64,000 bases of DNA from contig NZ_RPEM01000010.1 in assembly GCF_004745575.1 (NCBI RefSeq), forward strand, positions 1 to 64,000, written 5' to 3'. The DNA is from Pseudotabrizicola sediminis (lineage in GTDB: Bacteria; Pseudomonadota; Alphaproteobacteria; Rhodobacterales; Rhodobacteraceae). A program made the translations under genes and the position numbers. The notes beneath the pieces are model-generated. The model worked only from the letters and a program-made list of their open reading frames with translations, made no database searches and was not told the origin of the DNA. The stretch's first letter is position 1. Each line of letters begins with the position of its first letter. Positions 14,330 through 63,106 of the stretch are shown piece after piece.

Positions 14330-15556
14330 ATGGCGCTTGATCTTGAGTTTGTTCGGTCGCAGTTTCCGGCCTTTGACAGCCCGGTGCTGTCGACCCATGC
14401 GTTTTTTGAAAACGCCGGGGGCAGCTATCCGTGCCGTCAGGTCATCGACCGGCTGACGCGGTTCTACACCCATCGCAAGGTGCAGCCCTATGCGCCCTAT
14501 CCGGCATCGGAGCTGGCGGGGGAGGAGATGGACGAGGCGCGCAGGCGTCTGGCCGCGATGATGAACGTGGCGGGGCCGGAGGTGTCGTTCGGGCCGTCGA
14601 CCAGCGCCAATACCTATGTGCTGGCGCAGGCGGTGCGGGGCTGGCTGAAGGGCAAGACCGCGGCGATTGTGGTGACCAATCAGGACCATGAGGCCAATTC
14701 CGGCGTCTGGCGGCGGTTGGCCGACGACGGGATCGAGGTGCGCGAATGGCAGATCGACCCGCAGACCGGCAGCCTTGATCCGGCGGATCTGGCGCGGCTG
14801 CTGGACGATGGCCGGGTGCGGCTGGTGGCGTTTCCGCATTGTTCCAACGTGGTGGCCGAGATCAACGATGTGGCAATGATTGCCGCCATGGCGCGGGCGG
14901 CGGGGGCGCGCACGGTGGTGGACGGGGTCAGCTATGCGCCGCATGGCTTTCCTGATGTGGCGGCCCTGGGCTGCGACGCGTATCTCTTTTCCGCCTACAA
15001 GACCTTTGGCCCGCATCAGGGCATCATGGTCTTGCGGCAGGAGTTCGGGATGGAGTTGCCTGGGCAGGCGCATTTCTTCAACCAGGCGGTGCTGTACAAG
15101 CGCCACACCCCGGCGGGGCCCGACCATGCGCAGATCGCGGCCTGTGCCGGGATGGCGGATTATGTCGATGCCTTTGCCGCCGCGCATGGCATTTCCGGTG
15201 ATGCGGCGGCGCGGGGCCGGGGGGTGCACGATATGATGCGCGCGGCCGAGGTGGCGGTGATTGCGCCCTTGCTGGACTATCTGGCCGGGCGCAATGATCT
15301 GCGGCTGATCGGGCCGCGCCACGCCGGCGCGCGTGCGCCCACCGTGGCGGTGGCGCTGGACCGGCCTGCGCTGCCGGTGGCCGAGGCGCTGGGCCGCGAT
15401 GGGATCGCCTGCGGGGGTGGCGATTTCTATGCCGTCCGCCCCTTGGCCGCTTTGGGGGTGGACGGGGCGAAGGGGGTGTTGCGGATGAGTGCGGCGCATT
15501 ACACCAGCGCAGACGAGGTGGCCCGGCTGATCGCGGCGCTGGACCGGGCGCTGTAG
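14330..15556 (+). CDS. Class V aminotransferase / cysteine desulfurase-like protein
   Basis: The 408-residue protein has the class V PLP fold: NAGGSYPCRQVIDR, then FGPSTSANTYVLAQAV and VTNQDHEANSGVWRRL. The PLP-binding lysine is in YLFSAYKTFGPHQG (around residue 222). DGVSYAPHGFPDVAALGCD supplies the conserved aspartate and histidine region. It is closest in pattern to the isopenicillin-N-epimerase/SufS-like branch. No SUF or ISC genes are nearby, so the substrate is not known. It follows acuI with a 173-bp gap containing a repeat element and is probably a separate unit. Confidence 0.85.
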   Translation: MALDLEFVRSQFPAFDSPVLSTHAFFENAGGSYPCRQVIDRLTRFYTHRKVQPYAPYPASELAGEEMDEARRRLAAMMNVAGPEVSFGPSTSANTYVLAQAVRGWLKGKTAAIVVTNQDHEANSGVWRRLADDGIEVREWQIDPQTGSLDPADLARLLDDGRVRLVAFPHCSNVVAEINDVAMIAAMARAAGARTVVDGVSYAPHGFPDVAALGCDAYLFSAYKTFGPHQGIMVLRQEFGMELPGQAHFFNQAVLYKRHTPAGPDHAQIAACAGMADYVDAFAAAHGISGDAAARGRGVHDMMRAAEVAVIAPLLDYLAGRNDLRLIGPRHAGARAPTVAVALDRPALPVAEALGRDGIACGGGDFYAVRPLAALGVDGAKGVLRMSAAHYTSADEVARLIAALDRAL

Positions 15557-37396: not shown

Positions 37397-37486
37397 GGAC
37401 AGTTGGCCGAGTGGTCGAAGGCGCACGCCTGGAAAGTGTGTAGGCGGGGAACCGTCTCGAGGGTTCGAATCCCTCACTGTCCGCCA
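37397..37486 (+). tRNA. tRNA-Ser (GGA anticodon)
   Basis: The acceptor stem GGACAGT/ACTGTCC, discriminator G and encoded CCA (37484-37486) are complete. The D arm has GCCGAGTGGTCGAAGGC. The anticodon stem CACGC/GTGTG encloses loop CTGGAAA with GGA at 37431-37433. A long class II variable arm (TAGGCGGGGAACCGTCTC) and the T arm GAGGGTTCGAATCCCTC follow. Its 3' end is the integration site of the downstream element. Confidence 0.97.
37473..37486 (+). repeat. attL: 14-bp core in the tRNA-Ser 3' end
   Basis: CTCACTGTCCGCCA forms the last 14 bases of tRNA-Ser and is repeated in direct orientation at 45350-45363. Integration rebuilds the tRNA gene at this end. Confidence 0.85.
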
Positions 37487-37543
37487 CCACCCCCTGATTT
37501 AGTTATAAAGATCAGATACTTAGGCCGGAAATTGGGCTGCCTC

Positions 37544-37566
37544 AGGTTACACAAGAGGTAGCACAA
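37544..37566 (+). repeat. Candidate integrase arm-type sites, left end
   Basis: GTTACACAAG and GTAGCACAAG lie in tandem just before the integrase gene. AGGTTACACAA (37544-37554) recurs at 45249-45259 near the right end, in the same orientation. Confidence 0.45.
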
Positions 37567-37604
37567 GCGTGGTCGTCATCATCCGATCGGGGGCCTTCAA
37601 GGTC

Positions 37605-38966
37605 ATGTGTCAGCACATCGAACTGAAGAAGAACACATACTACTATCGCCGACGCATACCCAACTTTGCTCAATCGCTTTACCGGAATGCCCTAACTGCG
37701 AAGATCTCTTCCCAGATCTACTTCAGTCTAAAGACCAGTGATATGGTGGTGGCTTGCAAGGCGGCAGATGCCGAGACACGCAGGTTAGACGTCCTGTGGA
37801 AGGCAATGCAGAGTCGACCGGAGGGGGCAAGCGCCTCGGTGTCCTTAGCAATCCTTGAGGCACACGGACTTAAACCGGGTGACGGCATTCATCATCCAGA
37901 AGTGCCTGCAATCTCGGAGTTTGTTGACAACCTGCTTGGGCGCTACGAGCCCTCGGAACTACCACCGAAGGCGTCACCTCAAAACAAGCTTACAGTCGGT
38001 ATTCTGTTCGGAGCACCAATCCCCCGCACCCTTTCAGATGCTAAACAGAAGCACTTTGATTTGGGAAAGGGGCCAAAAGGCAAGATTGCTGAAGGTCAAT
38101 TCAATCGTGCATGGCAATGCTTGATGGGCATCACAGCCGACATTCCACTTGATCAACTTCATCGAGAACACGCTAACAGCTTTGTATCTGAACTTCTTAA
38201 AACAGGGGTGTCGGGTGAGACAATTAGGAAGTATCTTGCACAGATTAGGCCTGTCATTGGGACGGCGATTCTGGAATTTGAACTTAATCTGACTAATCAC
38301 TTCGAGCGCGTTACAATTCCTAATATGATGGATGGGCCTAGCAAGCCCCGGCATCCGTATTTGAACAGCGAGATTCGAGCAATACAAAAGAAATGCATTG
38401 AGGTTGATGATGAAAGGCGTTGGGCAATTTCGATGTTGTCCGATTCAATGTGCCGTTTGTCAGAAGTGATCGGACTTCGAAAGGATGAAGTATTCTTAGA
38501 AGCAGAAATTCCTTATATTCGTCTCAAGCCAAATGATGTAAGGCGACTGAAGACTCGGACTTCAGACCGCATTGTGCCTCTTGTTGGTGAAGCGTTATGG
38601 GGGGCAAAGCGAGCAATGCGGACAGAGGGAGAATATCTCTTTCCGATCTTTCTTATCAATTGGACCGGTAAAGACTTTTCCTCTGGCTCTGCATCGGCAG
38701 CCTTGGGTAAATGGCTCAAGGAAAACAAGTTGTCGAAAGATGGCCAAGGCCTGCACAGCTTCCGGCATACCATGAGAGACAGGCTGCGGAATGTGGAGAC
38801 ACCCGCTGACCTGATAGACCGTATTGGTGGGTGGAAGTCGCAAGGCATCGGCGAAACCTACGGCAAAGGACACAAGCCGCAGCTCATGCAAAGATTCATG
38901 CTAGCCGCGATGGAGGACCTTAAGTGTCATGAGGAGAGCCTGCTCGCCGATCCTGTTTTGGACTGA
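37605..38966 (+). CDS. Tyrosine-type site-specific integrase
   Basis: The 453-residue protein has an N-terminal segment (HIELKKNTYYYRRRIPNFAQ) typical of integrases of tRNA islands. A SAM-like core-binding domain follows around residues 100-230. In the catalytic domain the residues are R284 (SMCRLSEVIGL), the HSFRH motif at 384-388 with R387, GGW at 408-410, and the nucleophile Y419 in GETYGKGH. It starts 119 bp after tRNA-Ser. A GTG at 37569 in the same frame is an alternative start with GAGG upstream. It should catalyse integration and excision at the 14-bp core. Confidence 0.9.
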   Translation: MCQHIELKKNTYYYRRRIPNFAQSLYRNALTAKISSQIYFSLKTSDMVVACKAADAETRRLDVLWKAMQSRPEGASASVSLAILEAHGLKPGDGIHHPEVPAISEFVDNLLGRYEPSELPPKASPQNKLTVGILFGAPIPRTLSDAKQKHFDLGKGPKGKIAEGQFNRAWQCLMGITADIPLDQLHREHANSFVSELLKTGVSGETIRKYLAQIRPVIGTAILEFELNLTNHFERVTIPNMMDGPSKPRHPYLNSEIRAIQKKCIEVDDERRWAISMLSDSMCRLSEVIGLRKDEVFLEAEIPYIRLKPNDVRRLKTRTSDRIVPLVGEALWGAKRAMRTEGEYLFPIFLINWTGKDFSSGSASAALGKWLKENKLSKDGQGLHSFRHTMRDRLRNVETPADLIDRIGGWKSQGIGETYGKGHKPQLMQRFMLAAMEDLKCHEESLLADPVLD

Positions 38967-39031
38967 TTCAATGTAGCGCTGCACCACCTTGCCCAACCGC
39001 GCTGGGCCACACTATGGGAGGCACTAGGCCA

Positions 39032-40408
39032 ATGGATACCGACGATGCCGAAGCCGACCACACCGTCACCTCTGACGGCTATCGTAAAGCTTCCTTGGAG
39101 GCGGCGAGAATGGCGGAGTTCGTGTTTGCCACCAAGTCAGATGATGCCTGTGCCTTCGTAACGGCTTTGACCGACCTGACAAAGCAGCATGAGGCTGAGC
39201 GGTCGCCTAGGGACCGCGCACGGACTCAGAGAGCAGAAGGAACGTTCCGGGTCTCTCTCGGAGCTTTTGCGGCTGACCTCATATTCCATAGCAAGAATGC
39301 AGAGGCAGAAGGCTTCACGTATCGGTCAGTGGATAAGGAAGCCATGGGGCAAACCCTTGTAACGGTATGTTCGTTTGAAAAGGCGCGTCATCTATGGAAA
39401 AGCTTGGGTTTATTAGAGACTACAAGCTTTTTCCGGGCGAAGGACGCATGGGAGGACGGTGACCCACTCAGGGCATACTTTGGGCGTACTGGTCGATACA
39501 GGGCTACACCTGCCCTTCTGGCTCTTGCCGCACGCTTCCACATTGAGCCGAATAATCTGAAGGAACACTTTCAAAAAGAACTTGGTAGAATCGCATCAGT
39601 TCAAGTGAAGGGTGAGCAAACCTCCAAAAATGGTATGAAAGCACAGCCTATCACTATTAAGAAAAAGGGGCCTCGATTTGATCTAGAGATTAAAAGGGTC
39701 GACGAAATAAATCATTATCTCGCTGCAGGAGAGTTTGACCTATCCGATGTGCCAGTGGTGAATCGTTCCTTCAGTCGGGGAAATTTGTCCATATTCAACT
39801 TTGATCAAGGCGGAAGACTGTACTGTCGGTCGGACGACAATTGGCAGAGTATGCCCGGAGACCGTAGATCGAGAATACGATGTGGCGGTGAGCCAACTGT
39901 CGAGCTAGATGTTCGGGCAAGTCACATGTTCATCCTCTACGCACTTCACCCTAATTTTAATGTGCCATCCGGTGACCCATATTTCGTTGAAGGCATTGAA
40001 CGAAATGTGGTGAAGGGGCTAGTTACAGCAGTATTCGGAATTGGGGGATTTCCAAAGACCTGGCCCAAGGGCTTCAACAGAAAGAACGAGCTTGGGGATA
40101 AAGGTCCGGTAGGCAAGGTTAAATTATCACGTGTCCTTGATCTGATATGTTCCAAGCACCCGGTCCTTCACAAAGTCAAAGTCGGAGTGATGGACTGGGG
40201 GCGATTGCAATATGAGGAATCCGAATGCTTCGTTGAAGCCAGCTTGGACCTAGGGCGCAACCATAAAATAGCGGCCCTCCCTGTACATGACAGCTTGATC
40301 GTGGCCGTCAGTCACACTGAGGCTACAAGAACTGCAATGCTTGCAGCTTACCAAGGGCGATTTGGTAGAACCCCTGAGATAAAGGTAAGCAAGGCTGTCA
40401 TTTCTTAG
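39032..40408 (+). CDS. Uncharacterised protein with a polymerase-like palm signature
   Basis: The 458-residue protein is not a family I can name with certainty. Residues of about 75-170 look like a winged helix of replication-initiator type (FTYRSVDKEAMGQTLVTVCS, EKARHLWKSLGLLE, RYRATPALLALA). The C-terminal half has three motifs in the order of family A DNA polymerases or T7-type RNA polymerases. Motif A-like: GEPTVELDVRASHMFILYAL, D293. Motif B-like: R324-x3-K328-x6-F335-G336. Motif C-like: LPVHDSLIVAV, 418-421. GGRLY at 260-264 and DPY at 315-317 match a recurrent hypothetical-protein family of mobile elements that I recall. ATG 39032 follows GGAGG. It may replicate or prime the excised element; that is inference. 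Confidence 0.7.
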   Translation: MDTDDAEADHTVTSDGYRKASLEAARMAEFVFATKSDDACAFVTALTDLTKQHEAERSPRDRARTQRAEGTFRVSLGAFAADLIFHSKNAEAEGFTYRSVDKEAMGQTLVTVCSFEKARHLWKSLGLLETTSFFRAKDAWEDGDPLRAYFGRTGRYRATPALLALAARFHIEPNNLKEHFQKELGRIASVQVKGEQTSKNGMKAQPITIKKKGPRFDLEIKRVDEINHYLAAGEFDLSDVPVVNRSFSRGNLSIFNFDQGGRLYCRSDDNWQSMPGDRRSRIRCGGEPTVELDVRASHMFILYALHPNFNVPSGDPYFVEGIERNVVKGLVTAVFGIGGFPKTWPKGFNRKNELGDKGPVGKVKLSRVLDLICSKHPVLHKVKVGVMDWGRLQYEESECFVEASLDLGRNHKIAALPVHDSLIVAVSHTEATRTAMLAAYQGRFGRTPEIKVSKAVIS

Positions 40409-41109
40409 GCCAATAGGTGATCACTGAAGTCTCCAAGTTGCCCTGTACTCTACTTCCTAAATAGTATGATCTATCTCAAAAATAGCTACTGATAGGTTAC
40501 CCCCATCCTGCCCACAGTGGTAACTTTTACCTCCTATAGCATTACTTGGAAGCGTAAGCTCCAACTTGGATGTTACTGCTCTTATACATTCGTATAACAA
40601 CAATAATAATGCCACTAAAGCCCCAGTTTTTGAAGTCGTCAAACTTTAGCCCCCACCCCCTTCGCTGGTGGCCTGAAGGCGCTTCCCAAGATAAGCCCGA
40701 AGGCTGCCAGCGAGCCACAGAGGCTACCTTATCGACCCTTGCACTGGGTGGCCCGTCATAAAGGTGTAAGCGCCCTGTTGGCGCACTCCTAGCCCGCTAG
40801 GGGGCATGGCCCGCAGATCGGCCCAGCCTTCGGCCTCAGGGGCGGTCACTATAGGCCACATTGGTCATCGAGCCCCTCAGGGCAGGAGTTTCAACCGATG
40901 CGCCTCTGGTGGCCCTCTCCGGGGCCGTGCGGGGCTACCCTGTGCCTCAGTTGCCTCAACTTGCCGGACAGGGGGTGTCTGCCAATAGGGCTTGGCCATG
41001 TGTCAGGGGCGGAGGGAAGCGCGATGGCCTGCCATTGGAGTGGGTATTCGCTTTTGGCAGACACCCTGCCGCCACTCCTAAGACCTCATTGGCAGACAGG
41101 AGAGCCACA
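40409..41109. promoter_or_regulatory. Intergenic region with candidate res repeats
   Basis: About 700 bp without a supported gene. The 10-mer TTGGCAGACA occurs at 41054-41063 and 41089-41098, and as its complement TGTCTGCCAA at 40976-40985. At the last position it is paired with TTGCCGGACA (40961-40970) as an imperfect inverted repeat with a 5-bp centre. This layout, directly before a serine resolvase gene, fits a res recombination site with several subsites or an operator set. Two small hairpins lie further left around 40770-40800. Confidence 0.55.
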
Positions 41110-41679
41110 ATGCTGATTGGATATGCGAGAACGTCCACCCTTGACCAGAAGGCGGGGCTAGAGGCTCAGATAGAGGCGCTGAAGGCCCTCAGCTGCGAGC
41201 GCCTGTACTCTGAGCAAGTCAGCTCAGTTGCTGTCAGGGACGCCCTCAGGGAAGCCCTGGCCTTCTGTCGGGAGGGGGACACCCTTGTGGTCACCAAGCT
41301 TGACCGACTGGCCCGGTCAGTCCGACACCTTGGGGATATTGTTGAAGACCTTGAACGCAGAAAGGTCGGCCTGAGAGTGCTTGACCTCGGGTTGGACACA
41401 GGCAACGCCACAGGCAAGCTGATGTTGAACGTCTTGGGATCGGTGGCCCAGTTCGAGAGGGAGATGATGTTGGAAAGGCAGAAGGAAGGGATCGCCAAGG
41501 CCAAGCGGGAGGGCAAGTATCATGGCAGGAAACCGACTGCCCCTGACATGATTGCCCAAGTGAAGACCCTTCTGACCGAGGGGGTTCCCAAACGGAGAAT
41601 ATCGCAAATCACCGGGCTATCTGAACGCACTGTGTATCGCATGGTCAATGATGACACACCGTTGCAAAAGGTAAGCTAG
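41110..41679 (+). CDS. Serine recombinase (resolvase/invertase family)
   Basis: The 189-residue protein begins MLIGYARTSTLDQKAGLEAQ with the catalytic serine at position 9. It continues with DTLVVTKLDRLARSVRHLGD (active-site arginines) and GKLMLNVLGSVAQFEREMMLERQ, the long E-helix. The C-terminal DNA-binding domain has GRKPT and a helix-turn-helix (VPKRRISQITGLSERTVYRM). AGGAGAGCCACA precedes ATG 41110; the longer frame upstream runs through the candidate res repeats and is not coding. Resolvase-type length suggests resolution of dimers or cointegrates of the element. Confidence 0.93.
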   Translation: MLIGYARTSTLDQKAGLEAQIEALKALSCERLYSEQVSSVAVRDALREALAFCREGDTLVVTKLDRLARSVRHLGDIVEDLERRKVGLRVLDLGLDTGNATGKLMLNVLGSVAQFEREMMLERQKEGIAKAKREGKYHGRKPTAPDMIAQVKTLLTEGVPKRRISQITGLSERTVYRMVNDDTPLQKVS

Positions 41680-41973
41680 GTTCAGCTAACCAAGGATGCC
41701 CCGGATTGACTGATACAGGACGGGTCATCCTTACCTTGCCATTTGACCAATCTCAGGGTCCAGTCAACAACGTTGTGGCAAGGCGTGTACTTCGGAAAAG
41801 TGCACCTAAGAACACCTCTTAGTTTCCTTCGGCATGGTATCCAAGACCATGCAATGTGACCAATCGTATGGCAAAGGCAGCGCTCCACCAGCACCCGATT
41901 CTTGCAAGTTGCCGTAATGATAGACACTGATGGGTTAGCCTTCCACGCCACCCCAAACCAAAATTTATCAGTG

Positions 41974-44799
41974 TTACACCTTTTGCGATTTCTTCTGCTT
42001 GGCAGATTTGGTGCTATCCAGCGGGGCGGCAACCTTCTCGAACAACTCAAATAAGTGCTCAACCCGTTCACGCTCAAATCTAAAGACCTCTTTGCGATAC
42101 AATTTGTCGACCGCTTTATCCAAGGCCTGATGCGCCTTTCGTAGCACAACAGGCATAGCATCAGGATCATACAAATCTTCGAGGGTCTGACCCGCGACCA
42201 AGTGAGGTTGGCGGGAATCCAAGACCCCCTGCCCGAGCGCCTCAATCTTTGACTGCTGTGCTGCCGTTAGGTTTGGCCAAGGAAAGCTATTGTAAACCGC
42301 CGGAGCATAGCTAAACCGGCTTTCAAGTCGCCCTGCGACGGTCCTCATCCACGCCATATGCATGGATGAAGTTAGCACAGCGAAGTAGAGCAATGGCGCA
42401 CCAACGATAATTTGTAGTTTATTAGACGCTATAACATCTGGGGGGAGGACGGCCATGGGAATGTACTCCCGATGTTCTGAAGAAACCTCAGGGATTCCTA
42501 GATATTCGCGGCTAGGTTGGCGATCTTGGGTAAACAGCCATGGGTACTTGGCAAATTCTCTGACGCTATCAGTGGGGCTTAGGTTCCGCCCTACTCTCAC
42601 TCGATCAAGTCTTTCTTGGATCGCGGCAGAAGCACGGAGCTGAGAAGGGTTCACATCCTTCAGCCAAAGGCACCAGCGCCATTTTCCCGAGATCAGTTCA
42701 TCACCGCCAACGTAAGGCCTAAGCCATTTTGCTGCTCCTGGTTCACGTGCCAGAAGTTCCGCACGCTGAGTATCATTTAGAATCAGATTACTCTTTGTGG
42801 TGTACCCTCCACCCGGCTTCTTTAGCCTTGCTCCATCTGTAGGCTGGCTTCCTTTGTTCATCTTTAGCCGTCCGGCAGGTGGTTTCGAGCGAGCAGGAAC
42901 TGAGTACTGTGGTCCGTCAATAAGATAGCCATTGATCCTTTTGCACGACGATGCGTGCGGGTTTCCGCGTATGTGATCATATTCAAAGATGGTCGACTTC
43001 CTGCCCTCACGTTGCGTCATCCCAACGATGACACAATGTACGGCTGCCTTGCCTCTCGCTTCGCTGTTCCACTGAAATGACCGGTGAGCGAAATGGATAT
43101 GGATTCCTTTGCTAAAAATCCAAGGCCAAAGAATACCGCACTGCTCCCCTTGCGTGATCGAATTGGTAGAAACCAAAGCGATGTCGATTTCTCTATTCGA
43201 AGCAGCATACTCCACTGCCTTGCGGAACCAACATGCAACATAGTCGAGCCGATTATACTGACCAGACGTGCCCCAAACTCTTGCCATATCTGCTTGCTGA
43301 TCCAGTGAACGAAACTGGTGACCACGAAAGGGTGGATTGCCCAAAACATAACTGCACTTGGCCGGGGCTAGGAGCTTCGTCCAGTCTTCCGTCAGTGCGT
43401 TACCTTGGAGAATGTGTGGCGACTTTCGAAGTGGAATCCGGCTATAATATGGGCCAAACTCTAGGCTTAGACGGTTATTCATAATGTGGTCCATCATCCA
43501 CATTGCTGTCTCGGCAATTCTAGCGGCAAACTCTACTAGCTCAATTCCGTAGAATTGATCCACATTAACAATTGAAAGACTGGATACGTCCAGCGGCGCA
43601 GAAAATTGGCCAAAGGAATCTCTGTCATAATTCACTAACTCTCGAACTACCTCAATCTCTAAGGTGCGAAGCTCACGATAAGAAATGACAAGAAAGTTCC
43701 CACAGCCACAAGCTGGATCAAGGAAATTCAGTTCTCCTAGGCGGACTTGGAATCGTTGAAGTTCTGCTTTACGCCCTCGCTTACTTCCCTTTATCCTCTC
43801 AAACTCAGCCCAGAGTTCATCCATAAAGAGCGGCCGGATGACTTTGACTATATTTGTTTCATTAGTGTAGTGAGCACCTTGATTACGGCGCTCCTCTCGG
43901 TTCATGACTGACTGGAAGAGTGATCCAAAAATTGCAGGGGAGATATTGGACCAATTGAATCTTGCTGCTGCGATCAATCTCTCTCTCATGGCCGAGTTAA
44001 ATGCGGGCATTCGCAAGTTACTCTGAAATAGCGAGCCATTCACATATGGGAACTGTGCAAGGTCCTCATCTAGGGTCGAGGGGCGTTTTGTTGTTTCCGT
44101 GTCCAGCGTCTGGAATAGCATTGTGAGCCATCCGCCAAGGTCTGAGCCGTCGACGTTCGTTCGACGTTCTACAAGGTCTTCGAAGATGCCACGTGGTTCA
44201 AATATGCCAGTATCATCAGCGAACAGGCAAAAGACTATGCGCACTAGAAATCGTTCAAGGTCATGACCGTTGTAGCCTGAGTCCTCCAGCGCATCATGGA
44301 GCGCCCCAACAAGTTCCGACGCCTTTATATTTACCGGGTCTTGATCTTTAAATGTTTTCTTTTCACGCCCAGTGATGAAGCCAAACTTGTCGACATGTTT
44401 GGGTAGATCAGCGAGGGGAAACGCAACCTCTTCGTCATTCTCTAGATCATAGAGTTCGAACGACTGAAAATCGCTCAGCAGAACAAAGCGGGGTAGTTCA
44501 TTGTCTTTAAGGCCAGGGAAATACTCTAATGCCTGCTTACGAGCCTTTACAAGATCAAGACCAATGCTTTTTTGCTCAACTAAGAGAACACCTTTCCAGA
44601 ACAAGTCGATGAAGCCTCGCTTTTCACCGAGCCCTTTCACAGGTTGCTCAAATGTCGCAACTCTGCGCACTGGCACACCAAACACATCAAAGAACTCCCG
44701 GTAGAAGAGCTGTGTTTCGCCCTTTTCGTAGCCATGCCCAGCCCACTCCCGTGCAAAACCTGCAGCTCGTGAGCGGATTTCATTTTGTGACAGAGACAT
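41974..44799 (-). CDS. Single-chain type II restriction-modification enzyme (MmeI/type IIL family)
   Basis: The 941-residue protein combines nuclease, N6-adenine methyltransferase and target recognition. The N-terminal nuclease motif is D65-x9-E75-Q-K77 (in GFIDLFWKGVLLVEQKS), the same spacing as the MmeI nuclease. A helical connector follows (residues of about 160-340). Methyltransferase motif I is LDPACGCGNFL (360-370) and motif IV is NPPF (488-491). The remainder (about 600-880) should be the target recognition domain, with a Lys-rich tail. Start 44799 was preferred because AAGGA lies 5-6 nt upstream. It is convergent with the resolvase and separated by 294 bp with no gene. No partner subunit is needed, and it probably serves as the element's anti-phage or self-maintenance cargo. 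Confidence 0.88.
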   Translation of the reverse strand: MSLSQNEIRSRAAGFAREWAGHGYEKGETQLFYREFFDVFGVPVRRVATFEQPVKGLGEKRGFIDLFWKGVLLVEQKSIGLDLVKARKQALEYFPGLKDNELPRFVLLSDFQSFELYDLENDEEVAFPLADLPKHVDKFGFITGREKKTFKDQDPVNIKASELVGALHDALEDSGYNGHDLERFLVRIVFCLFADDTGIFEPRGIFEDLVERRTNVDGSDLGGWLTMLFQTLDTETTKRPSTLDEDLAQFPYVNGSLFQSNLRMPAFNSAMRERLIAAARFNWSNISPAIFGSLFQSVMNREERRNQGAHYTNETNIVKVIRPLFMDELWAEFERIKGSKRGRKAELQRFQVRLGELNFLDPACGCGNFLVISYRELRTLEIEVVRELVNYDRDSFGQFSAPLDVSSLSIVNVDQFYGIELVEFAARIAETAMWMMDHIMNNRLSLEFGPYYSRIPLRKSPHILQGNALTEDWTKLLAPAKCSYVLGNPPFRGHQFRSLDQQADMARVWGTSGQYNRLDYVACWFRKAVEYAASNREIDIALVSTNSITQGEQCGILWPWIFSKGIHIHFAHRSFQWNSEARGKAAVHCVIVGMTQREGRKSTIFEYDHIRGNPHASSCKRINGYLIDGPQYSVPARSKPPAGRLKMNKGSQPTDGARLKKPGGGYTTKSNLILNDTQRAELLAREPGAAKWLRPYVGGDELISGKWRWCLWLKDVNPSQLRASAAIQERLDRVRVGRNLSPTDSVREFAKYPWLFTQDRQPSREYLGIPEVSSEHREYIPMAVLPPDVIASNKLQIIVGAPLLYFAVLTSSMHMAWMRTVAGRLESRFSYAPAVYNSFPWPNLTAAQQSKIEALGQGVLDSRQPHLVAGQTLEDLYDPDAMPVVLRKAHQALDKAVDKLYRKEVFRFERERVEHLFELFEKVAAPLDSTKSAKQKKSQKV

Positions 44800-45349
44800 T
44801 TGCGTCCTTAATAGGTTATGCGGTGGGCTGGCCTCACCTAGTGCTCGGTGTTTCAGGCCTAGCAGCACTAGCTGATCGGTGCAAACATCCATTTAGGCAA
44901 TCCTGTCCTAGTATTTTGCCCGCCCCCCCCCCCCAGCGCCGCCTGTCGAGAGTTTCAGCCTAATGTGGTCCCTTGCCTAACAAATTGGCTTAAGCCCGTT
45001 CCAGCCCCGCCCGGGTGTAGCTAGGTTCTAGCCAAGGGTTCACCTCAGTCTCCCCATCGCCACCAATGTCGACGTTCTCTGAGGATCCTTTAGGGCTTCC
45101 GCCTGGGCGGCTGACTTGGCTGGTTTGAAGGCTTGAGGTGAGCCAGTGCAAGGAGAGAGCCATCACCGGTGGAGACCTACCCCTCTCAGATGGTCGAGGT
45201 GGTAGTCAGTTCATCGAAGCTCAAGCTATGCTCAAGTTACCCGGAGGGAGGTTACACAAACTCAGCACGCGAGCTACACACACCAAATGGACGCATTGTA
45301 AGTTTCTGTTTTCATTGGTACATTTCAGGGTCAGAAACGTCCTGTCGCT
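44800..45349. other. Right-end non-coding region of the island
   Basis: No gene is supported in these 550 bp. It contains a 12-C tract at 44923-44934 and the right candidate integrase arm site AGGTTACACAA (45249-45259), followed by a related CTACACAC. The minus-strand promoter of the restriction-modification gene must lie at its left end. Confidence 0.55.
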
Positions 45350-45363
45350 CTCACTGTCCGCCA
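45350..45363 (+). repeat. attR: 14-bp core, right end of island
   Basis: This is an exact direct copy of the last 14 bases of tRNA-Ser (37473-37486). It marks the right junction of the integrated element. Confidence 0.83.
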
Positions 45364-45798
45364 GATGCCCCCGGTAAGCTATTGATGCTAAATAGAAAAT
45401 CGCGGAGCCTTTGTTTTTCATCCCCCACCATGTCCCCCACTTGGGTTTGGCATGGCGCGGAATGTGGTGGAACGCTTTGGATGCTTTTCTGCAAAGCCCT
45501 GATTTGTGGATGTGCGTTTTTTGCGTCCCATGCCGGTCCCATACGGGCCTAGGCCCACAGAAGCGACCCCCCCCCCCACGCTGTTCCCGCTGCCGGGGAA
45601 GGCTTGTCCAAACCTTTTTTGTGGCGGTTTATGATCGAACGGTAATCAGCGCCGGTCCTTGTCCGGGCAGGGCCAAAGATTAGGCCCCCCCCCCCCCGAG
45701 CGGGTCGCTGGTGGCTCAGTTTGAATTTTAGTGGGGTTGACGTGGGTATCGCTTGTCCGCACTTCCTGTAGGCTAAGTGGTGTGCATAGGAGGCTGAT
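45364..45798. other. Non-coding region with two poly-C tracts
   Basis: No gene is supported. There is an 11-C run at 45567-45577 and a 13-C run at 45685-45697. A CATCCCCCACCATGTCCCCCAC segment follows the att site. The AGGAGG at 45788-45793 belongs to the next gene. Confidence 0.5.
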
Positions 45799-46074
45799 GT
45801 GTCCATAAATGACTATGTTGACGATCTGGAAGGCGCGGCACGTTTCGCCGCCGCAAAGGCGGGCGCTATTGAGATATGCGCCGCCCATAGTGACGTGACA
45901 ATTCGAGTGGGAGACGCAGATGCAGAACGCCACGCCTACGCACTTGCCACCACAATTCTTAAAAGAGACGGCACAGCTTGGATGAGGGAAGATCTGATGC
46001 CTGCCATTGCCGACCTGTTGGATATGGCAGCAGATGGTGAGTGTCCGCAGTGTGCCTACATCCGGAGTGAGTGA
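45799..46074 (+). CDS. Small hypothetical protein
   Basis: The 91-residue protein starts at GTG 45799, five bases after a perfect AGGAGG; the overlapping ATG at 45797 runs into a stop after three codons. The sequence is acidic and Ala-rich (MSINDYVDDLEGAARFAAAK) and ends in a CPQC pair near the C-terminus. I do not recognise a family. It is the only plus-strand gene in the module that follows the island, apart from the Sel1 gene. Confidence 0.6.
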   Translation: MSINDYVDDLEGAARFAAAKAGAIEICAAHSDVTIRVGDADAERHAYALATTILKRDGTAWMREDLMPAIADLLDMAADGECPQCAYIRSE

Positions 46075-46144
46075 GGCTTAAAGGCCTCAAAGGAGAAAAA
46101 AGCCCGCCGATGCGGGCCAAGACCCACGTGGCGCATTCTACACC

Positions 46145-47104
46145 TTAGATCGGCTCATCCAGCAACTGTAATGCACCATCGGGCAAGGGGCGCTGAAGTT
46201 TCGCGGCAATCTCAAAGGGTGCTGACAGCCATGTCTCCCATTCATCAGGCTCGGTCAGGATGGCGGGCATTGCCTTGGGATGCACCGCGCCCACCTCGGC
46301 ATTTGGCGTGCAAGTCAGAAAGGCGAAAAGGTCATCTGTTGTAGGCCCGTCCTTCACCTTGCGCAGTGATTGCCAGCCGCGAACCTCGATACCCGCGAAG
46401 AACATGGGCTTGCCCGGTTCGGCAGGACCGAACCATTGATTGCCGCCCTTCTTTGGCTCGGCAAAAGAAGTCACTGGCACAAGGCAACGGTGTGCTGGGC
46501 CAAGCCAGCGCCGCCAGTGCGGGGATGCCAGATTGCGGACATTTGCCACGCCGGGGTCACGCTCAGTTTTGAGGACAGATGCCGGTGAGGGCATACCCCA
46601 GCGAGCGCGCACCAGTTCCAGCCCATTGCTAGAGTGGCGCACAATCGGCGCAAGCCGGTCTGGATAGATCGAGCCAGGTTCAAGGTTTCCTGCACCATCT
46701 GACCATTCCAGCCCGACGAAAAGGCGGCGCACCGCCTCTTGGGCGGTTGTCTGACTGTAAAGATTGCACATCGCTGCCTCATCATCGGTCACCACATTCC
46801 CATGCGGCGCATTGGGGGAATAGTATCCGGGCAAGATGGTTCCGTCCGCCACTTCCAGATTGGGGAAGGCATCGGCAAAGGCAGACGCATCATGCGGACA
46901 GCGAAAATAGAGGGCGATGCGGTCGCGCCCGCCATTTCCGCCGCCACCATGCAGCGCATAGCTCGCCTTCCCGATGTGGCGATCAAGCCACTTATACATT
47001 GGCATCATAGCGCGACCGAACCCGTTCGGGGGAACGTAGAACCAGATGCGCACCGGAAACGCACGTTCATCAGCCTTGGATTGTAGTTCGGTTCGTCTTG
47101 TCAT
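46145..47104 (-). CDS. SRAP (YedK/HMCES-like) protein with in-frame N-terminal extension
   Basis: The C-terminal 208 residues are a SOS-response-associated peptidase domain, which forms a DNA-protein crosslink at abasic sites. It begins MCNLYSQTTAQEAVRRLFVG, with the catalytic cysteine as residue 2. Further on are EPGSIYPDRLAPIVR, RARWGMPSP, NVRNLASPHWRRWL, CLVPVTSFAEPKK and AVHPKAMPAIL (active-site His). About 111 further residues (MTRRTELQSKADERAFPVRI ...) precede it with no stop codon. The Cys must be N-terminal to act, and GAGG lies 5-6 nt before the internal ATG at 46771. The functional SRAP protein is therefore probably 46145-46771. The upstream part may be a separate small protein fused by loss of its stop. 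Confidence 0.8.
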   Translation of the reverse strand: MTRRTELQSKADERAFPVRIWFYVPPNGFGRAMMPMYKWLDRHIGKASYALHGGGGNGGRDRIALYFRCPHDASAFADAFPNLEVADGTILPGYYSPNAPHGNVVTDDEAAMCNLYSQTTAQEAVRRLFVGLEWSDGAGNLEPGSIYPDRLAPIVRHSSNGLELVRARWGMPSPASVLKTERDPGVANVRNLASPHWRRWLGPAHRCLVPVTSFAEPKKGGNQWFGPAEPGKPMFFAGIEVRGWQSLRKVKDGPTTDDLFAFLTCTPNAEVGAVHPKAMPAILTEPDEWETWLSAPFEIAAKLQRPLPDGALQLLDEPI

Positions 47105-47274
47105 CGGTAAGAACAAACACGGAGCAATCTTGGGTGCAAGGCTGACCTTCGTCGGGTTGGGGCGACGGGTTCCTGATCGAGAGCACCAGAGCTGTGGGCG
47201 CGCTAGATCAGGGAAGAGATTGACGCTTGTCGAAGGGTATTGTTTGTTTGAAATGCAGCATTGGAAGGGCTTTG

Positions 47275-48084
47275 ATGACTGGATTCTTCAAGAGAATTGT
47301 TCTGGCGCTTGCGCTTGTAGCGCCACCGGCAGCCGCACAGAACTTTGATGCAGGGCTGGCTGCTGCGCAGGCCGGAGATTTTACCACAGCGATCCGAGAA
47401 TGGACGCCTCTGGCCGAGATGGGCAACGCGATTGCGCAAGGCAACCTCGGTCTAATTTACGAAAACGGCCACGGTGTTCCGCAGGACTATGCACAAGCTG
47501 CGAAATGGTACCTATTGGCCGCAGAGCAAGGCAATGCATGGGGGCAAAACAAACTCGGTGACCTGTACGAAAACGGTCAAGGTGTTCCACAGGACTATGC
47601 CGAAGCTGCAAAATGGTACCGACTGGCCGCAGAGCAAGGTAATGCATGGGCGCAAACCAATCTCGGTAACCTGTACGGCAACGGCCACGGTGTTCCAAAA
47701 GACGATGCCGAAGCCGCAAAATGGTACCAACTGGCCGCAGAGCAAAACAGTGCTTACGCACAGGCTAACCTAGGGTACCTGTACATGAACGGCCAAGGTG
47801 TTTCACAAGACTATATCGAGGCCGCAAAATGGAACCGACTAGCCGCAAAGAAAGGCCATGCAGTGGCACAGCATAACCTTGCGCTAATGTTCGAACACGG
47901 CAATGGCGTGCCGCAAGACTTTGTGACAGCGCATATGTGGTACAATCTCGGCGCGGCGCAGAATGTCAATGACGCAGCACAGTTTCGAGACGAGCTCGCG
48001 AAGCGAATGAGCCCTGAAGATGTCTCGGAGGCACAGAAACGTGCGCGGGCTTGCCTCGCATCAAACTATCTGGACTGCGATTGA
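47275..48084 (+). CDS. Secreted Sel1-repeat protein
   Basis: The 269-residue product has a signal peptide (MTGFFKRIVLALALVAPPAAAQ). At least five Sel1-type 36-residue repeats follow, each with the pattern A..NLG.LYENG.GVPQDYA.AAKWY.LAAEQG. The repeats are nearly identical at DNA level from 47455 to 47850. Such solenoids mediate protein contacts in the periplasm. GGAAGGGCTTTG lies before ATG 47275; the longer frame from 47227 is unlikely. The C-terminus carries two cysteines (ARACLASNYLDCD). Confidence 0.85.
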   Translation: MTGFFKRIVLALALVAPPAAAQNFDAGLAAAQAGDFTTAIREWTPLAEMGNAIAQGNLGLIYENGHGVPQDYAQAAKWYLLAAEQGNAWGQNKLGDLYENGQGVPQDYAEAAKWYRLAAEQGNAWAQTNLGNLYGNGHGVPKDDAEAAKWYQLAAEQNSAYAQANLGYLYMNGQGVSQDYIEAAKWNRLAAKKGHAVAQHNLALMFEHGNGVPQDFVTAHMWYNLGAAQNVNDAAQFRDELAKRMSPEDVSEAQKRARACLASNYLDCD

Positions 48085-48120
48085 GCCTGCTGCATACCTA
48101 CCCCTTGATCGGCTTTGCGT

Positions 48121-48651
48121 TCATTGGAGACCATTAGCGCGCCACGCCGCCCAGCGCCGCCGCTGGGCCCCAGCAATCCTCTCCTTGCCGTCGGGAGTCC
48201 GAGCCCCGGTTGACTTGCCACCATGAAACTTGCAACGCCTGCGGCCCGCCTCTGACTTATTTCGGCACTCGCCGCCCTTGCGCGTCTTTGCCCCGCACAC
48301 CACGCGGCAGCGAGCCTTGCGCTGGGCTTCCCGTTCACGCCACAGCACCATCTGAGCCTCAACCCAAGCGTCGATTCGGGCGCGTTCATCCCTTTTCTGT
48401 GTATCACCCCATCCCCCCGCGCGCGCATTATGGGGGATTAAATCCGCCAAGGTGGGAAGTTCCAGCACCTTGGCAAAGGATCGAGGCGCGCCCCATTTAA
48501 GCGGGACGGTGTTCTTTGCCTCCCAATACTGGACGGCCTCCCGCGAGACGCCCGAAAGCTGCGCAAGGGCACGCTGGGTCAGGCCAGCGGCCTTTCGGCT
48601 GGCCTTCAGAGCCGCCCCAGTCGTGGCAATTCGTGCCGCACGCATGGTCAC
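48121..48651 (-). CDS. XRE-type helix-turn-helix protein with C-terminal HGG motif
   Basis: The 176-residue protein starts at GTG 48651 (overlapping the previous stop as GTGA) or ATG 48645. The N-terminal domain is a Cro/C1-type HTH (LKASRKAAGLTQRALAQLSG, VSREAVQYWEAKNTVPL). The C-terminus has CGAKTRKGGECRNKSEAGRRRC and FHGGKSTGARTPDGKERI, a cysteine/HGG block widespread in prophage and island genes of Rhodobacterales. It is probably a regulator of the decayed element at 45.8-50.4 kb. Confidence 0.82.
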   Translation of the reverse strand: MTMRAARIATTGAALKASRKAAGLTQRALAQLSGVSREAVQYWEAKNTVPLKWGAPRSFAKVLELPTLADLIPHNARAGGWGDTQKRDERARIDAWVEAQMVLWREREAQRKARCRVVCGAKTRKGGECRNKSEAGRRRCKFHGGKSTGARTPDGKERIAGAQRRRWAAWRANGLQ

Positions 48652-48932
48652 GTCTCAAAGGGGCGCTGTGCCCCCGTCGCGGCCCTTCTGGCGCGTGCAG
48701 CGCGCTTCCTGCACCCTTCGCGGCAGAAGGCCGCATCGGCACGGCGCGTGAAGGGCACGGGGTCGCCACATTCCCGGCACGACCATTCGCCGCCGCCCCG
48801 TCTAGCGTTTAGCATGATGCGCTGTGCGCGGGCTTTTCGGTGCCGTTTGTTCCCACATGGCCAAGTGTAGAACAGCACGTTTTGCGGCCAGCTTTCGCCG
48901 GGTTCGACGCCGCCTGGATCGGGTTCTGCCAT
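48648..48932 (-). CDS. Small zinc-ribbon protein
   Basis: The 94-residue protein has two zinc-binding Cys pairs, CRECGDPVPFTRR and CREGCRKRAARARR, with an additional WPCG near residue 25. The basic C-terminal half suggests nucleic-acid binding. It overlaps the XRE/HGG gene by 4 bp and is on the same strand as the DUF3987 gene. No named family was recognised. Confidence 0.68.
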   Translation of the reverse strand: MAEPDPGGVEPGESWPQNVLFYTWPCGNKRHRKARAQRIMLNARRGGGEWSCRECGDPVPFTRRADAAFCREGCRKRAARARRAATGAQRPFET

Positions 48933-48996
48933 GATGGTCCTTTGATTAAATCGGGGGCCAGAGACGGGTTAAGCCCTTGGGGTTGCACAATCGAAT

Positions 48997-49329
48997 TCAA
49001 CTAACTGGTGACGCCGAAATGCGGCCATCGCGCGCCACATGGATGCGGCCCTCCGCCTGCATCGTGTCCAGAAGCTGATAGGTTTGGGTCACCCCCAGCC
49101 GGGTTGCCGTAGCGATTGCGCCGGGTCGATGTCGCCCAGCGCGGATTGCGGCAAAGATTGCCCCTTCATCATCCAATTTCGGGGCAGGGGGTGCCGCTAC
49201 TTCCGCTACTTCCGCTACTTCCGCTACTTCCGCTACTTCCGCTACTTTTGCCGGGGGTGCAGCAACGGGCGAGGGGTGAGCCTCGCCCGCCGTGACAGCT
49301 TGCAGCGCCGCCGCAACATCAAACCACAT
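48997..49329 (-). CDS. Hypothetical protein with VAE tandem repeats and winged-helix-like C-terminus
   Basis: The 110-residue protein has a Pro/Ala linker with five tandem VAE triplets, encoded by the 9-bp repeat at 49195-49256. A C-terminal domain follows (GAIFAAIRAGRHRPGAIATA, then LGVTQTYQLLDTMQAEGRIH) that reads like a winged helix. It starts inside the end of the DUF3987 gene (11-bp overlap), so it belongs to the same operon. The function is unknown. Confidence 0.65.
   Translation of the reverse strand: MWFDVAAALQAVTAGEAHPSPVAAPPAKVAEVAEVAEVAEVAEVAAPPAPKLDDEGAIFAAIRAGRHRPGAIATATRLGVTQTYQLLDTMQAEGRIHVARDGRISASPVS
49195..49256. repeat. 9-bp tandem repeat (CGCTACTTC), six perfect units plus a partial
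   Basis: The unit keeps the reading frame and encodes Val-Ala-Glu on the minus strand. Copy number can change without frameshift. Confidence 0.93.
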
Positions 49330-50368
49330 CGCGCGGCCTCACGATCCGATACGCCACTTTCCGCGATACGCCGCCGATGATTTCACCCTCTGGCAATGCC
49401 GCCAGCCATCCGCTATCGGCCAAGGTTGCCATCAGCTTTCGTGCGGTCTTTGCCTCGCGCAAAGCGTTCGGCCCGTATTGCATCGCATCCTTTGGGGTGA
49501 TTGTCGCCGGGTCGCGGTCCAAGCGGTGCGCCTGTTCTGGCCAGCGGTCCAAGATCCACAGCCGCAAGCCTTCGGCCTGTGCCGTTTCCGCCGATACAAG
49601 CGCCGTGTCCGCCAGCCGCACCGCCTCTGACAGATAGAATTGCGCCAGAGCGATGCCCCAAGCCATTGCCTGCGCCGTGATAGCGGGGGCCATCAGATCG
49701 CCCCACAGCGCCAGCACAGCCGCAATGCGCACCGCCTGTTCTGCCGCCTTGGATGCAAAGCCCGTCACATGCGCAAGGCTTGCCCCGGTGCGCTGTTCCT
49801 GTTCGATGGTATCGGCAAAGGCCACCAGCAATGCCCGCGCATCTGGTGACAGGCAAAGGGCGCGCGGTTGCAGTTCGCGGGTTTCCGGGTCCATCGACAT
49901 CGGCGTTTCAAGGATGGTGCGCAAGCGTTCGCTGAAACGGCCCAAGGCCCCATCATCGCGCCGGGTCAGCGATGACAGGCGGGTGCCGATGGTGCTTGGC
50001 GGTTCGGTGATAAGGAAGCGTGGCAGAAAGCCTGTGCCGGTCGCTGTGCCATCGGCCAGAAGGCCCCGCGCGACCTCGGGCTGTATCATCAGATGCACTG
50101 CCAGCCGCCGCCCAAACAAAGTATAGGCCCCATCCCCCGCACGAGTGCGCCTAATCGGGTTGCCCTGCCACAGATCGTTTAGGGCGGTCAGGGTCTTTAG
50201 GCGGTTTTCGCTGTTCATCGCATGGCCCCCGATGAATTGCCCGCCTTCATCGGCAAAGATGCCAAGTGACGGTTGCCCTTCCGCGAACAGTTTGGTCAGC
50301 CCTTCAAAGGTCGGTTCCGTAACCGTGCGGTCCGCAGACGGGGGCGCAATCGGTATGGCAAGGCGCTG
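49319..50368 (-). pseudogene. DUF3987 (YfjI-type) protein, N-terminus missing
   Basis: The frame is open from a stop at 50369-50371 downward. It reads TVTEPTFEGLTKLFAEGQPS, LGIFADEGGQFIGGHAMNSE and then RAGDGAYTLFGRRLAVHLMIQPEV, the DUF3987 core found in phage and island replication modules next to primase genes. Only about 350 residues remain, whereas relatives have roughly 450-500, and the N-terminal part is cut exactly where plus-strand permease sequence begins. An internal ATG at 50218 could give a 299-residue product. It overlaps the VAE-repeat gene. Confidence 0.75.
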
Positions 50369-62802: not shown

Positions 62803-63106
62803 GGAAGCGGGGCGGCATAGAACCGATTGGCAAGTTTCTTCTCTCACGCATCTGAACTGTTCGCCACCACGGCCTGCTTCTCGTCCCGCGCTCCCAATAG
62901 TGCAGAGTATCATGTTCGGCCCATGGCCGCCGGTCGCCCCCCGGTGATCCGGTTCTTCAAAACAGTCACTTCAGGAGGACGCAGCAATAAGGGCGCACAG
63001 CCCTAACGTTGGCCGCTCTGCACATTAGGTTAACGCTCCGCGCGAAAAAGTCTGCTAAAGCATCCCGACAGAGTATCGAGATCTCTGAAACACACAGAGG
63101 TTACCC
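62803..63106. other. Gap before the D-lactate dehydrogenase gene
   Basis: No gene is supported in these 304 bp. AGGGC/GCCCT around 62988-63005 can form a small hairpin without a clear T run. The right part must hold the dehydrogenase promoter. Confidence 0.5.

Follow-up and report, generated by a model that had tools for sequence, protein, structure and literature searches.

TV-Pols and Related Polymerases of Mobile Elements

TV-Pols are a family of predicted primase–polymerases that was described in 2008 (Iyer, Abhiman, and Aravind, PMC2579912). They are 400–600 amino acids in length, occur either stand-alone or with a D5 helicase or an N-terminal domain, and have been predicted to lie near the ancestor that Pol I shares with T7 RNA polymerase. 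Two antiparallel helices make up the thumb, an arginine on a beta hairpin is conserved without exception, the palm has two aspartates, and the fingers have an aspartate and an RxxxK motif, and nuclease domains are absent (PMC2579912). In the subset with an N-terminal domain, the neighboring genes, located in hot spots of mobile elements, encode a lambda-type integrase, a gamma-delta resolvase or a transposase, often together with restriction genes, and replicative mobile elements with primase–polymerase activity have been proposed for the family. The species in Figure 2 of that study include members of Loktanella, Roseovarius, Paracoccus, Sulfitobacter, and Oceanibulbus, and several of the genera shown are of a marine Rhodobacterales type.

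According to Bebel (2020, PMC7581432), CCPol of SCCmec is a DNA polymerase whose priming in vitro depends on MP, and, to the knowledge of its authors, no TV-Pol besides CCPol had been tested in vitro as of 2020. Relatives from Bacillota have been surveyed by Rice (2023, PMC10061031).

A TV-Pol Gene in Pseudotabrizicola sediminis

The window, a stretch of 64,000 nucleotides from contig NZ_RPEM01000010.1 of P. sediminis, contains a gene (39032–40408, + strand) encoding a protein of 458 residues that fits the TV-Pol family described in 2008 (PMC2579912). Its ATG at 39032 has a GGAGG sequence 10 nt upstream, and an in-frame alternative ATG at 39014 would add six residues. A sequence-only reading of this DNA had recognized D293, R324-x3-K328-x6-FG, and VHDS (418–421) in the 458-residue ORF, and all are present at these positions in the translation. 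The strict pattern R-x3-K-x6-[FY]G ... HD[ES] occurs in none of the 304 distinct non-family ORFs of at least 350 amino acids in the loci analyzed and, when the protein is shuffled 20,000 times, turns up in 6 shuffles; with [FY]G required, it fits 1 of 54 family ORFs. The FG that had been attached to motif B is not a feature of the family, as position 335 is Ile or Leu in 29 of 38 aligned sequences, and position 336 is Asn in 23 and Gly in 6. A looser pattern (D, R-x3-K, HD[ESAC]) fits 47 of the 54 family ORFs and 24 of the 304 others, at least 17 of these 24 coming from Pol I or RNA polymerase loci that were chosen deliberately, and chance alone produces it often, in 1317 of 20,000 shuffles. 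At the level of sequence, the proof is residue conservation; the loose motif by itself would not suffice.

Alignment A2, from which these residue counts derive, comprises 38 sequences, namely the window protein and 37 relatives that are 16–44% identical to it. R245, G261, R262, R279, D293, and K328 are invariant (38/38), and F247 is nearly so; R324, Y317, and D420 are kept in 37 sequences, as is the R324-x3-K328 pair, and H419 is kept in 36 and D315 in 35, one of the 38 rows stopping before positions 419–420. The features of TV-Pols find their counterparts among these residues. The two palm aspartates correspond to D293 and D420, which align with motifs A and C of Pol I, the hairpin arginine corresponds to R262, and the aspartate and RxxxK of the fingers correspond to D315, R324, and K328. 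In the AlphaFold2 model, one long helix (residues about 214–232) precedes the palm at the place of the thumb, R262 resides on a strand (260–265) that is preceded by another strand (243–248), and the fingers contain a helix spanning residues 324–337. The invariant G261-R262 motif on this hairpin had been absent from the sequence-only reading. No nuclease domain is found (0 Pfam domains), an N-terminal domain of about 190 residues is present, and the neighbors in the window are an integrase, a gamma-delta resolvase, and a restriction gene. The window protein adds a member to a kind of polymerase that is already known from mobile elements, and, since TV-Pols in such a gene context were reported in 2008 (PMC2579912), the earlier claim that a replication protein is unusual for a small integrative element fails.

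Fold and Superfamily

As a single sequence, the window protein has no match in Pfam (up to E 1), in NCBIfam, or in a phmmer search against the PDB. The AlphaFold2 model of the whole protein (pLDDT 83.7, pTM 0.70) was compared with known folds, a check that had been proposed along with the sequence-only reading. In the Foldseek comparison with the PDB, 68 chains reach E 1e-3, with a best E of 1.7e-5 at a probability of 1.00, and the best 50 of the 68 are all family A DNA polymerases; the whole-chain TM-scores are low, at 0.23–0.33 among these best 50 and 0.31 for the top match. In the viral library, the top match is a 435-residue protein named as a DNA polymerase from Rheinheimera phage Barba31A (E 7.2e-20, TM 0.51), and a replication protein of Zamilon virus appears at rank 41. 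An archaeo-eukaryotic primase or PrimPol fold finds no support, as there is no Pfam Prim-Pol match and the best 50 fold matches are of family A.

The profile–profile comparisons, also proposed at that time, covered Pol I and T7-like RNA polymerases. When alignment A2 is compared by hhalign with eleven Pol I sequences, five motifs fall in register, namely R262 (within GR), D293, D315, R324/K328, and H419-D420 (E 0.0026), although the probability is only 11.6. The hhalign match to three T7-like RNA polymerases is confined to the region of motif C (E 0.00036, probability 36.9). The ten best PDB profile matches are mitochondrial RNA polymerase (E 0.014–0.024), one of the 38 members matches PHROG 414 (3.4e-4) and one PHROG 2051 (5.3e-3), both annotated as RNA polymerase, and 1 of the 19 members of alignment A1 matches Pfam RNA_pol at E 0.012.

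The conserved catalytic residues, the model with its family A matches, and the register of the Pol I motifs all agree with the palm of a distant polymerase that had been proposed from the motifs, and an assignment to a family A-type palm and fingers is supported. These three lines on the palm share one alignment and are therefore not fully independent; each fold line is modest alone, and in combination with the invariant residues they decide the superfamily assignment. The protein shares five motifs in register with bacterial Pol I, but it is without a recognized exonuclease domain, its fingers are shorter, and it reads HDS in place of HDE and D-x-Y in place of D-x-H. CCPol, in contrast, has been modeled with a partial 3'-5' exonuclease domain (Rice 2023, PMC10061031).

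DNA or RNA Substrate

The protein shares D-x-Y, R-x3-K, and HDS with T7-like and mitochondrial RNA polymerases. D315-P-Y317 resembles D556-x-Y558, which is invariant in three RNA polymerases, whereas D370-x-H372 is invariant in the eleven Pol I sequences, which read D-I-H at this motif; likewise, HDS is the RNA polymerase consensus, and HDE is invariant in the Pol I set. Together with the mitochondrial RNA polymerases among the profile matches, these residues speak for a T7-like RNA polymerase, whose role would be to transcribe the element or to synthesize nothing but RNA. This reading is improbable, as the distance from the motif A aspartate to the motif B arginine is 31 residues, shorter than the 49 of Pol I and the 69 of the RNA polymerase of L085, the best 50 fold matches are DNA polymerases, and the window protein itself has no Pfam RNA_pol match.

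Two further positions differ from both reference sets. Five positions after the motif A aspartate, His is found in 23 of the 38 sequences, while Pol I has Glu and RNA polymerase has Gly. Eight positions after the motif B lysine, Asn is found in 23 of the 38 and Gly in the window protein, in place of the Tyr of both sets, so that the choice of sugar, and with it the substrate, is unreadable from sequence, which also counts against the RNA polymerase reading. CCPol keeps E710 and F762 of Pol I, according to PMC7581432, whereas the window protein has H298 five positions after the aspartate and T332 four positions after the lysine.

The N-Terminal Domain

The N-terminal domain (residues about 1–190), modeled alone (pLDDT 82.5, pTM 0.80), consists of helices at 66–86 and 112–125 followed by strands at 128–137 and 150–158, an order that is winged-helix-like. 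Foldseek returned no match below E 0.28; among its best 50, 29 are by name winged-helix regulators or replication terminator protein, all of which we take to be of the winged-helix class, and 15 are ribosome chains. The best profile match is to ORC2 (E 0.032), presumably to its winged-helix part. The earlier description of a winged-helix-like N-terminal half is thus compatible with the model, although the databases add little to it, with E at or above 0.28 in Foldseek and 0.032 for ORC2. The domain was predicted to be all-helical in TV-Pols (PMC2579912), whereas the models here add winged-helix-like strands. Taken as a whole, TV-Pol is predicted to be a stand-alone minimal polymerase of the family A type with a DNA-binding-like N-terminal domain.

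The Integrative Element and Its Relatives

The gene resides in an island next to a tRNA-Ser (GGA) gene (37397–37486, + strand, ARAGORN), the putative integration target, whose last 14 nt (37473–37486) form attL. A tyrosine integrase with an N-terminal DUF6538 domain follows at 37569–38966 (+ strand; Pfam PF00589, 1.4e-11, and PF20172, 8.8e-10), and then the TV-Pol gene. The next gene encodes a gamma-delta/Tn3-type serine resolvase (41110–41679, + strand), whose start is taken at the ATG at 41110; the longer ORF at 40861–41679 matches Pfam Resolvase (3.5e-40) and HTH_7 (1.3e-6). The cargo is an MmeI-type single-protein restriction–modification enzyme (41974–44892, − strand) with five MmeI Pfam domains, recognized by PADLOC as REase_MTase_IIG with an E-value of 0. 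A 14-nt copy of the 3' end of the tRNA-Ser, CTCACTGTCCGCCA, lies at 45350–45363 (+ strand, E 0.023) and forms attR, so that the element, from 37473 to 45363, measures 7.9 kb between the 14-nt repeats. An inexact 15-nt match of the tRNA-Ser end is also present at 62856–62870, and a repeat of at least 14 nt arises in 12 of 2000 draws of random 45-mers. From the sequence, the repeats at 37473–37486 and 45350–45363 are likely the ends of the element.

At nine loci of the same genus, the 90 nt of the tRNA-Ser are 97–100% identical, and blastn finds no match between the window's contig and the DNA that directly follows this gene; two of the nine match that contig further on, and for three of the nine, 273–630 bases behind the tRNA could be compared. 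No clean empty site was found among the nine loci. The tRNA, the gene order, and the size of 7.9 kb recur in L065, a sister element from another genus, whose TV-Pol is 45% identical to the window protein. The far-end repeat of L065 at 14485–14498 covers the same tRNA positions, 77–90, as in the window, and the cargo of L065 is a type ISP restriction enzyme instead of the MmeI type. In Rhodobacter maris (L002), a resolvase and a SIR2-like gene come after a truncated copy of TV-Pol.

Twelve loci with a tRNA gene, comprising the window and 11 of 20 loci scanned, were searched for such ends. Same-strand tRNA-end repeats surround the integrase and TV-Pol in six of the twelve (window, L065, L068, L079, L080, and L082) and delimit elements of 6.0–9.2 kb. 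In L070 and L084, a tRNA-end match of 16–17 nt lies on the opposite strand, and L067, L069, L081, and L083 have no good tRNA-end repeat. Such tRNA-end duplications are unmentioned in the main text of the 2008 description (PMC2579912). Local profiles seeded with the window genes were applied to 22 loci (the short contigs L076–L078 set aside); within 6 kb of TV-Pol, they detect an integrase in 17 and a resolvase in 8, which leaves 5 loci without a nearby integrase and 14 without a resolvase. Pfam recognizes 17 integrases and 7 resolvases among 173 neighboring ORFs, that is, 189 ORFs minus 12 under 105 amino acids and 4 distant ones in L065.

Several loci have further features. In L082 (6491–13204), the TV-Pol element is flanked by two complete tRNA-Gly genes, and its polymerase gene is broken by a TGA. 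The 7.5-kb contig L078 (150–2333) carries a TV-Pol relative and a fusion of PrimPol with a D5 helicase, with one ORF between them. In L072 (3298–7296), a 1333-residue ORF with a weak, below-cut-off NACHT/AAA match adjoins the TV-Pol gene and is possibly another defense cargo.

A second variable region (45364–50350) with SRAP, Sel1-repeat, and DUF3987 proteins lies behind attR in the window. In G711, of the same genus, DNA like that of the window at 48.7–50.3 kb is found about 1.1 kb behind tRNA-Ser, and the 4 kb compared there contain no match to the 37473–45363 island; in G717, 137 nt like contig position 99.7–99.8 kb lie about 0.5 kb behind tRNA-Ser. With such DNA behind it, this tRNA may hold stacked islands. 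Within the second region, the SRAP part (46134–46798) has two more partial copies in the same genome at 85–86% identity, and 9-nt tandem repeats (CCGCTACTT) at 49185–49256 encode a VAEVAEVAE run in a small minus-strand ORF.

Non-Coding DNA Upstream of the Resolvase

Between the polymerase and the resolvase, a conserved non-coding block (40539–40663) is a candidate origin. It consists of a 19–20-nt word at about 40539–40557 and a second part at about 40595–40663 with the order AACAA-AATAA ... AGCCCC-TTTTTGAAG ... CCCCCACCCCC and a C-rich end. The block is common to L065 (9662–9816), L002 (6703–6859), and L069 (10897–11046, upstream of the L069 resolvase), and for each pair the blastn score exceeds those of all 40 mononucleotide shuffles. 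DNA downstream of the L069 polymerase has nothing in common with it beyond chance by blastn; as the resolvase precedes the polymerase in L069, the block belongs to the resolvase side of the module. An nhmmer model of the block found no further locus in 0.99 Mb, the four source sequences matching by construction, and a repeat search of the window and L065 spacers detected no iterons. The block could serve as an origin or in regulation, or it could belong to the res system.

Nearer to the resolvase, 0.3–0.5 kb downstream of the block, lies a res-like site (40973–41109) with three copies of TTGGCAGACA or its reverse. A similar site is present in L065, L002, and L069, and a stretch around GGAGTGGG ... 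TTTTGGCAGAC is common to the window, L065, and L069. Tn3-type resolvases act at a res site on their own molecule, and the triple TTGGCAGACA site looks like the res site of a resolvase of this kind; such an own-molecule site would imply that dimers of the element arise.

Distribution of the Family

Among genomes of the same taxonomic family, 21 of 198 contain a relative (single-sequence query); for the class, the number is 22 of 289 (alignment A1 query), and for the phylum 24 of 398 (alignment A2 query), 23 of the latter being in the same class; the window's own genome is counted each time. The named matches, which include Rhodobacter maris, Thioclava, Paracoccus, Sphingomonas, and Neorhizobium, suggest a spread of the family among the Alphaproteobacteria. 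Broken relatives also occur: internal TGA codons interrupt the gene in L036 (the same gene as in L082) and L024, L020 and L007 are split over two frames, and L002 is truncated. These copies would favor a decaying relic without activity, a reading that is scarcely credible for the window copy, which is full length and has all catalytic residues, though it is only 45% identical to the nearest full-length relative found.

The only significant PHROG match of the window protein is PHROG 4756 (E 2.2e-21), whose function is unassigned, and a single-protein scan of viral contigs found no relative. With one relative as the query, matches were found in 246 of 50,697 phage records (7 with the window protein as the query), from phages of Rheinheimera (115), Vibrio (110), Aeromonas (14), Pseudoalteromonas (3), Shewanella (3), and Klebsiella (1). 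Many of these records are near-identical isolates, some matching in two places, and the relatives are labeled hypothetical in those rows inspected that bear an annotation. ORF100 of ICP1 (HQ641347.1; L139:2026-3693) is a relative that keeps R262, R279, D293, D315, Y317, R324, K328, and H419-D420. Ma-LMM01, a phage named as a TV-Pol carrier in PMC2579912, gave no match to the A2 profile, an empty answer that is uninformative for that search.

The restriction enzyme in the island, and the restriction or SIR2-like genes that adjoin several relatives, raise the question of whether TV-Pol itself is a defense or counter-defense effector that copies templates, with a role like that of defense reverse transcriptases, and thus cargo instead of part of the mobility core; defense is also raised as a possibility by Rice 2023 (PMC10061031). 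This appears very improbable, as the polymerase gene is retained while the cargo varies (MmeI type, type ISP, type I, and SIR2-like), its commonest recognized neighbors are an integrase and a resolvase, and relatives reside in the 246 phage records, where an antiphage gene is less expected.

A Candidate Replication Protein

The reading that best accommodates these observations, to which we give a probability of about 0.6, is that TV-Pol is the replication protein of the 7.9-kb integrative element and would prime and copy the excised circle, by analogy to CCPol. The integrase would excise the element at the 3' end of tRNA-Ser, where the matching ends are observed, and the N-terminal domain would bring the enzyme to the DNA of the element, perhaps to the conserved block at 40539–40663. 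The polymerase would then start and extend a strand where the template has been opened or is single-stranded, in the way that CCPol–MP of SCCmec does in vitro. Dimers derived from copying would be separated by the resolvase at its own res-like site, and the copied circle would reintegrate or transfer with an interchangeable defense gene, the cargo indeed differing among the relatives.

The resemblance to CCPol–MP of SCCmec pattern 2 lies in a family A-type palm, a mobile element, a serine recombinase nearby, and a candidate role as the replication module of the element. In contrast, CCPol works with MP, an OB-fold protein, in one operon with the helicase Cch2 (PMC7581432), and neither is recognized here. 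Of the four large ORFs of the element scanned with Pfam, none besides TV-Pol resembles a replication protein, which favors the replication reading, and no helicase family is matched except for a "helicase spacer" domain in the MmeI-type enzyme. A small OB-fold SSB partner was sought at 40409–40860, where no ORF of at least 80 amino acids is listed. That no helicase, SSB-like partner, or iteron origin is recognized in the element, whereas CCPol requires MP for priming (PMC7581432), counts against replication by TV-Pol. The rarity of the family on plasmids, the low whole-chain TM-scores and hhalign probabilities, the lack of Pfam and NCBIfam matches, the empty search of Ma-LMM01, and the loci without a nearby integrase, resolvase, or same-strand tRNA-end repeat also weigh against this reading.

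A more specific form of the replication reading would dispense with such partners. An origin-binding winged-helix domain joined to a self-priming minimal family A polymerase would copy the 6–9-kb element from the block upstream of the resolvase, without a helicase or SSB of the element, and the resolvase would clear the dimers. Such a one-protein replicator can be put forward only tentatively.

An element without a recognized helicase, and the rarity of the gene on plasmids, also fit a role in second-strand synthesis, in which TV-Pol would make a single-stranded element, incoming through conjugation or natural transformation, duplex for the integrase, with no amplification of a circle; this role has been proposed for the SCCmec enzyme by Rice 2023 (PMC10061031). 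Four queries found the family in 3, 3, 3, and 4 of 72,556 plasmid records, all of at least 127 kb. Second-strand synthesis is nevertheless unlikely to be the function, as a resolvase with its own res-like site makes most sense with multimers born from replication, an argument that is tempered by the presence of a resolvase near only 8 of 22 relatives.

The plasmid records also bear on whether TV-Pol drives a free replicon. With a family that is rare on plasmids and carriers that are large, there is no sign of this, and five short contigs with the gene (5.2–12.6 kb) have no exact terminal overlap of 20–399 nt; both observations speak against a free replicon.

Significance

To a known kind of polymerase, this locus and its relatives add likely element ends, tRNA-end repeats in six of twelve loci, a res-like site, a conserved non-coding block, phage relatives that include one in ICP1, and, more weakly and from models, a winged-helix-like N-terminal domain. 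From this comparison, PHROG 4756 and the hypothetical proteins in the 246 phage records also gain a suggested function. Its small size, its likely ends, and the presence of a single candidate replication gene and a single candidate origin block make the element a clean system in which to ask whether a TV-Pol replicates the element that carries it and can prime by itself. If the one-protein replicator were true, the element would have among the smallest dedicated replication modules of integrative elements, a comparison that we make partly from general knowledge, and TV-Pol would be a family A primase–polymerase that is independent of a partner protein.
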